From the NCBI GenBank assembly GCA_003646415.1, contig QNFS01000006.1, forward strand, positions 1 through 33,045: 33,045 bases of DNA. The letters run 5' to 3'. The stretch is from Gammaproteobacteria bacterium. Its GTDB lineage: Bacteria > Pseudomonadota > Gammaproteobacteria > Pseudomonadales > Halieaceae. This document shows, one piece after another, positions 26,522 to 28,005 of the stretch. Numbering within the stretch: the stretch's first letter is position 1; every line of letters starts with the position of its first letter. The notes below the pieces were generated by a model, which saw only the letters and a list, made by a program, of their open reading frames with translations, had not been told where the DNA came from and did not search any database. The translations under genes were made by a program, and so were the position numbers.

Positions 26522-26914
26522 ATGTCAGCTACCCAATATTACGGAACCGGTCGTCGCAAGACTTCCACTGCCCGCGTTTTCCTGAAGAGCGGTGACGGCA
26601 GCATCACCATCAACAAGCGCCCGCTGGATCAATACTTTGGTCGCGAAGTGGCCCGTATGATCGTGCGTCAACCGCTGGAGCTTGTTGAATTGAAAGACAA
26701 ATTTGATATTAATGTGACAGTGGCGGGTGGTGGCAGTTTTGGCCAGGCCGGCGCTATCCGCCACGGTATTACACGTGCCCTGATGGAATACGACGAGTCC
26801 CTGCGGGGCGCCCTGCGCAGTGCCGGTTATGTGACCCGTGATGCCCGCGAAGTGGAGCGCAAGAAGGTTGGCCTGCGCAAGGCGCGTAAGCGCCCGCAGT
26901 ACTCAAAGCGTTAA
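26522..26914 (+). CDS. rpsI: 30S ribosomal protein S9
   Basis: [37 protein letters not shown]...[15 protein letters not shown]. Confidence 0.99.
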
Positions 26915-27014: not shown

Positions 27015-27032
27015 GGCGGGAGTAATCCCGCC
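27015..27032. repeat. REP-like hairpin GGCGGGA-GTAA-TCCCGCC flanked by CTCCTAC
   Basis: Perfect 7-bp stem; reverse complement GTAGGAGGCGGGATTACTCCCGCCATG has REP-like character. Confidence 0.55.
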
Positions 27033-27192
27033 TCCTACCCGATCCAAAAACTCAGTGAAATCAAGGCGTTTTCCTTGTAACAACACGGCAAAATCATTAA
27101 CATTTGCACCTTTTTGAGAGGTGCGGTCCCGGTCGTTGATATCGGTCGTTGATAAATGGCCGCAATAGGATCTGTAATCCGGAGAGAAAAGC

Positions 27193-27325
27193 ATGAGCAG
27201 CGATGGCGTAAGCACCGGCAGGAGGCAATTCCTGACGGTGGCCACGAGCGTGATTGCTTTTTATCGCCCTGTTTACGGTGTTCGCATGGTTGCTCAATCG
27301 CGAGTACTGGAAAGACGTACACTAG
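27193..27325 (+). pseudogene. petABC deletion scar: 5' end of petA (Rieske protein) fused to 3' end of petC (cytochrome c1)
   Basis: Frame 1 from ATG 27193: MSSDGVSTGRRQFLTVATSVI (PetA N-terminus). Second frame ending at TAG 27323-27325: LLFIALFTVFAWLLNREYWKDVH* (PetC C-terminus). Lies between rpsI and sspA, where petABC normally sits. Confidence 0.85.
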
Positions 27326-27372
27326 TCGCCGCACTGCGGCATTTTCTGTAGAAAATAATTGAGGAATTCCTG

Positions 27373-28005
27373 ATGGGTGTAGTGGCAAGACGGTCTTCGA
27401 TGACATTTTTTTCTGATAGCACAAGTCATTACAGTCACCGTGTGCGTATTGTTCTGGCCGAGAAAGGGGTCACAGTGGAAATGATAGAGGCGAACGCGGC
27501 TCACCCACCGGTGGAGTTGGCTGATCTCAATCCCTACAACAGCTTGCCCACTCTGGTGGACAGGGACTTGGTATTGTACGAGTCCAAGGTGATGATGGAG
27601 TACCTGGATGAGCGTTTTCCACACCCGCCCCTGTTGCCGGTATACCCCGTGGCCAGAGCTGAGAGTCGCCTGTACATCCACCGCATCGAGAAAGACTGGT
27701 GCGCCCTGGTGGATGCGATCCAGCACACGCGCAGTGAAAATGTGGTTAAGAAATCCACCAAGGAATTACGCGATAGTATTATGGGCATAGCGCCTATTTT
27801 TGTTGAAAAGCCGTTCTTTATGAGTGACGAATTCACCCTCGTGGATTGCTGCATCGCACCCATCCTGTGGCGCCTGCCGTTCCTGGGGATAGACATCCGT
27901 TCCAGCAAGCAATCCAAGCCGCTGCTGACCTATATGGATGTCCTGTTCAACCGGGAGTCCTTCCAGGAGAGCCTGTCTGAGCAGGAGCGGGAAATGCGCC
28001 TTTAG
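27373..28005 (+). CDS. sspA: Stringent starvation protein A
   Basis: [83 protein letters not shown]...SLVDCC-like block [20 protein letters not shown]. Confidence 0.97.

Follow-up and report, generated by a model that had tools for sequence, protein, structure and literature searches.

The window, which is the whole 33-kb contig C6 (33,045 nt) of the 367-contig genome bin G000, carried a scar between rpsI and sspA in which the start of petA, encoding the Rieske protein, was joined to the end of petC, encoding cytochrome c1, and the rest of the petABC operon for the cytochrome bc1 complex (complex III) was missing. The bin is a metagenome-type draft of an uncultured marine gammaproteobacterium with a completeness of 87.8% and a contamination of 6.2%, and the relatives retrieved via sspA were Halieaceae. 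The scar is present in the assembled sequence. A single deletion in the assembled genotype, made by illegitimate recombination and perhaps not fixed, was given a probability of about 0.5 as its origin, and on this reading the presence of the junction in real cells is inferred. The features of the locus are listed in Table 1.

Table 1. Features of the rpsI-sspA interval in the window.
Feature	Position	Strand	Evidence
rpsI (ribosomal protein S9), intact upstream neighbour	26522..26914	+	78-95% identity to Halieaceae relatives; gene order rpsI-petA-petBC-sspA as in relatives
petA ribosome-binding site GGAG, retained	27181..27184	+	Alignment with petA leaders of 20 relatives
petA remnant with the twin-arginine signal start (Rieske protein, first 20-21 codons)	27193..27255	+	tblastn 81%, residues 1-21; alignment of relatives
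Deletion junction, exact base ambiguous, apparent overlap no more than about 4 nt	27252..27257	+	Comparison with petA starts and petC ends from relatives, among them the sister MAG (L033)
petC remnant with the cytochrome c1 membrane anchor (last 23 codons) and stop codon	27254..27325	+	tblastn 91%, PetBC residues 657-679; 94% DNA identity to sister MAG (L033)
Run-on ORF, out of frame, 52 codons, probably non-functional	27193..27351	+	Translation
sspA, intact downstream neighbour	27373..28005	+	93% to sister MAG (L033); 75-91% to other relatives compared

The open reading frame at the scar began with ATG behind the GGAG motif and encoded MSSDGVSTGRRQFLTVATSVI. In tblastn, the first 21 residues of PetA from Haliea alexandrii (L067) matched the start of this frame, and the last 23 of the 679 residues of its fused PetBC matched 27254-27322, which was followed by the stop codon TAG (27323-27325). 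The petC end was recovered with E = 1.9e-6 and the petA start with E = 9e-4 in whole-genome searches, and a chance match of two short peptides was ruled out by these values together with synteny. The two stubs lay in different reading frames. The petA match ended at about 27252-27255 and the petC match started at about 27253-27256, and without an intact parent sequence for comparison the junction is ambiguous to the exact base. These results bore out the preliminary description, which had read 27193-27325 as a petA-start/petC-end fusion behind a normal ribosome-binding site, and they placed its out-of-frame junction, assigned there to 27251-27262, at 27252-27257.

In the petA stub, Q12 and V16 were unusual, being rare or absent at conserved positions in 50 relatives, most of which had no or one such residue; a third unusual residue, I21, may come from the petC side. 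Judged by this comparison, Q12 and V16 weakly suggest relaxed constraint and cannot date the event. The petC stub showed neither unusual residues nor decay when compared with the relatives. In the spacer between rpsI and petA, a 29-bp stretch (27015-27043) recurred at 97% on another contig of the bin (G000:C175:5050-5078), and it is perhaps a small dispersed palindromic repeat.

In other genomes petA and petBC were found directly upstream of sspA in 69 of 80 sspA loci, confirming that this interval normally holds petABC; the contig ended inside petABC in ten loci, and petABC was absent in one (L082). The earlier reading identified the operon correctly; petB and petC formed a single fused ORF of about 679 aa in Halieaceae (most of the 80 loci; L067:3884-5923), which also occurred in several other families of the order. 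From the petA ATG to the petC stop, 2,636-2,642 nt were counted in 15 relatives versus 133 nt in the window, and 2,503-2,509 bp were missing from the window as judged from these relatives. Neither cytochrome b nor a haem-binding part was left between rpsI and sspA, as had been stated before. Both ends of the operon were homologous and syntenic, with the interior missing, which is the pattern of a remnant.

Both flanks of the junction matched one genus. Upstream, ZapE and the HtrA-like protease were 93% and 89% identical to those of the same-genus sister MAG (G001), and downstream, SspA (93%), SspB (94.5%), YraP (92%), DiaA (87%), YraN (89%), LpoA (84%) and RsmI (91.5%) matched a contig of that MAG (L033). 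The tetranucleotide usage of the two sides was correlated at 0.927. A chimera of two organisms was ruled out, since both flanks matched the same sister MAG at similar identity (84-94%). The end of the window contig (33045) lay about 5.04 kb past sspA; about a dozen of the 80 relative contigs stopped at the same place (4.9-5.1 kb), and this suggests a conserved assembly-breaking element directly after rsmI.

This arrangement is best explained by one deletion of about 2.5 kb that ran from petA codon 20/21 to the final 23 codons of the petBC fusion. Its ends would have been joined by illegitimate recombination, with little or no homology. All redox-active parts of cytochrome bc1 would have gone, while the neighbours sspA and rpsI stayed intact. 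The earlier proposal of a single internal deletion held in so far as the sequence looks like one deletion keeping both ends, but the loss of complex III in a living cell, which it included, could not be established from a metagenome-type bin. The short junction overlap fits illegitimate recombination and not a simple k-mer collapse by the assembler; chimeric reads and faulty gap closure remain compatible with it. A misjoin of two places by a de Bruijn assembler needs an overlap of k-mer length, far above about 4 nt.

An assembly artefact is a serious possibility, though not the favoured one. In that case petABC would be intact in the organism, its two ends would have been brought together by a chimeric read, strain mixture or wrong gap closure, and the interior of about 2.5 kb would lie in an unbinned contig; the usual length limits for binning lie near this size. 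The region does assemble badly, because the sister MAG breaks here and contig ends are commoner in petABC: ten of the 80 relative contigs ended within the 2.6 kb of petABC, compared with three in an equal stretch downstream of sspA. In the sister MAG one contig ended just after zapE and another (L033) started in the middle of petB, and a search of that MAG gave no petA or rpsI sequence, so the deletion could not be dated. The petABC region is thus prone to assembly trouble, which elsewhere was seen as breaks and not as clean joins. The retention of two cytochrome c oxidases in the genome also favours an artefact, while the lack of the long overlap needed for a graph misjoin, the lack of any petABC interior fragment in the bin and the single genus on both flanks argue against it. 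No paper on chimeric contigs was found in a narrow literature search. A true deletion is considered slightly more likely than an artefact.

Cytochrome c1 was present in 128 of 141 genomes of the family (76 of 79 among the good ones). Recurrent loss of bc1 in the family was rejected, as the three good genomes without cytochrome c1 look like assembly gaps: petA and part of petB were present in G102, with the contig end inside petB, the contig of G138 ended beside rpsI, and neither rpsI nor a true sspA match was found in G002. Nothing directly relevant to bc1 loss in Halieaceae or Gammaproteobacteria was found in the open literature.

No other bc1 was identified in the binned contigs. For cytochrome c1 there was no PF02167 match in the bin, and only the last 23 residues were left at the locus. 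The Rieske protein with its 2Fe-2S domain was absent, with only PetA residues 1-21 at the locus, no match to the Rieske N-terminal family PF10399 in the bin and no PetA match elsewhere in it. PetB-type cytochrome b with haem-binding helices was found neither at the locus nor elsewhere in the bin. Beyond the stubs, searches of the bin with PetA and PetBC returned only one sub-threshold match of 33 residues and a distant cytochrome b. The latter, the only cytochrome-b-like gene, was a cytochrome b/ferredoxin/FlpD fusion in an unusual oxidase cluster, divided between contigs C106 and C110.

Two cytochrome c oxidases were revealed in the bin, a cbb3 type (CcoN, CcoO and CcoP operon on C29) and an aa3 type (on C94, where the contig end truncates subunit I). 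No match to cytochrome bd was found in the bin, nor any PF03916 match for the NrfD-family membrane subunit (ActC/ActF) of alternative complex III. The preliminary description had expected respiration via quinol oxidases only, or a bc1 or alternative complex III encoded elsewhere; the first is not supported, given the cbb3 operon and aa3 oxidase, and neither of the others was found in the bin, itself only 87.8% complete. No route from quinol to cytochrome c was identified in the assembly, and this either speaks against a settled loss or means that the bin lacks a part. If the junction is real, both oxidases would have to draw on a different electron source or on a bc1 outside the captured bin, and therefore the deletion may be a variant of recent origin or of a minority rather than a settled loss.

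The deletion is favoured by the PetA and PetC end matches at the syntenic site, the overlap of at most about 4 nt, the one-genus flanks and the lack of bc1 elsewhere in the bin. It is opposed by the fragmented and incomplete bin, the cytochrome c oxidases kept without an identified quinol:cytochrome c route, the near-universal cytochrome c1 of good family genomes, the gap of the sister MAG at this place and the undecayed petC stub. A stronger version, in which a Halieaceae lineage has recently become devoid of complex III by one deletion, kept cbb3 and aa3 and reduces cytochrome c in a different way, perhaps with the help of the cluster of oxidase and cytochrome b-ferredoxin-FlpD genes on C106 and C110, is unlikely.

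This conserved cluster encoded a divergent heme-copper oxidase (subunits II and I), a Sco-like protein, the cytochrome b-ferredoxin-FlpD fusion, a second weak COX1-like protein and a TlpA/ResA-like protein, with a NosR-like protein nearby. It was common to G000, G001, G002 and G155 at 60-90% (L116:1-3507 and L117:1-3934, from C106 and C110 of G000; L121; L122; L152:2695-9926). In addition, the bin may be contaminated by contig C1, on which a 784-aa COX1-family protein is encoded; the C1 stretch L120 (G000:C1:8000-20000) had a GC of 0.49 and a tetranucleotide correlation with the window of only 0.52.

Also unlikely is a relocation or replacement, in which the native petABC would have been deleted and bc1 supplied by another petABC in the missing 12% or so of the genome. 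The model for it is G155 (Halieaceae bin SI047_bin19), the bin of L082, whose contig C181 (L152:14063-16658) carried a divergent, unfused petABC, 49%, 59% and 38% identical, about 4 kb from an oxidase cluster sharing 60-90% identity with its counterpart in G000. Provided that this bin is clean, a native petABC can disappear from a genome that has a second copy. However, G155 has a size of 5.4 Mb and is possibly a mixed bin, calling for caution, no second petABC copy was found in G000, and the same oxidase cluster stood in G002 without an adjoining petABC.

A petABC scar is ordinary in kind and would be of interest only with read confirmation. A real and fixed scar would mean that complex III was lost recently, with the trace still readable, in a family that otherwise respires via cytochrome c, raising the question of what reduces cytochrome c in that lineage. 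An artefact, on the other hand, would warn that an apparent gene loss in a metagenome bin can stem from a junction error in a conserved operon.

Compared with the petA-petBC operon of Halieaceae, whose fused PetBC resembles fbcH of Bradyrhizobium, the window had the same position, PetA start, PetC end and neighbours, but was without about 2.5 kb including all cofactor-binding parts. L082 likewise lacked petABC between rpsI and sspA; its spacer was a clean 61 bp (L082:3049-3109) without stubs, with the divergent petABC elsewhere in the bin, whereas the window kept both stubs. Bacteria naturally without bc1, such as Escherichia coli, depend on quinol oxidases. The bin resembled them in having no complex III, but differed in its cytochrome c oxidases of the cbb3 and aa3 types and in that cytochrome bd was not detected.
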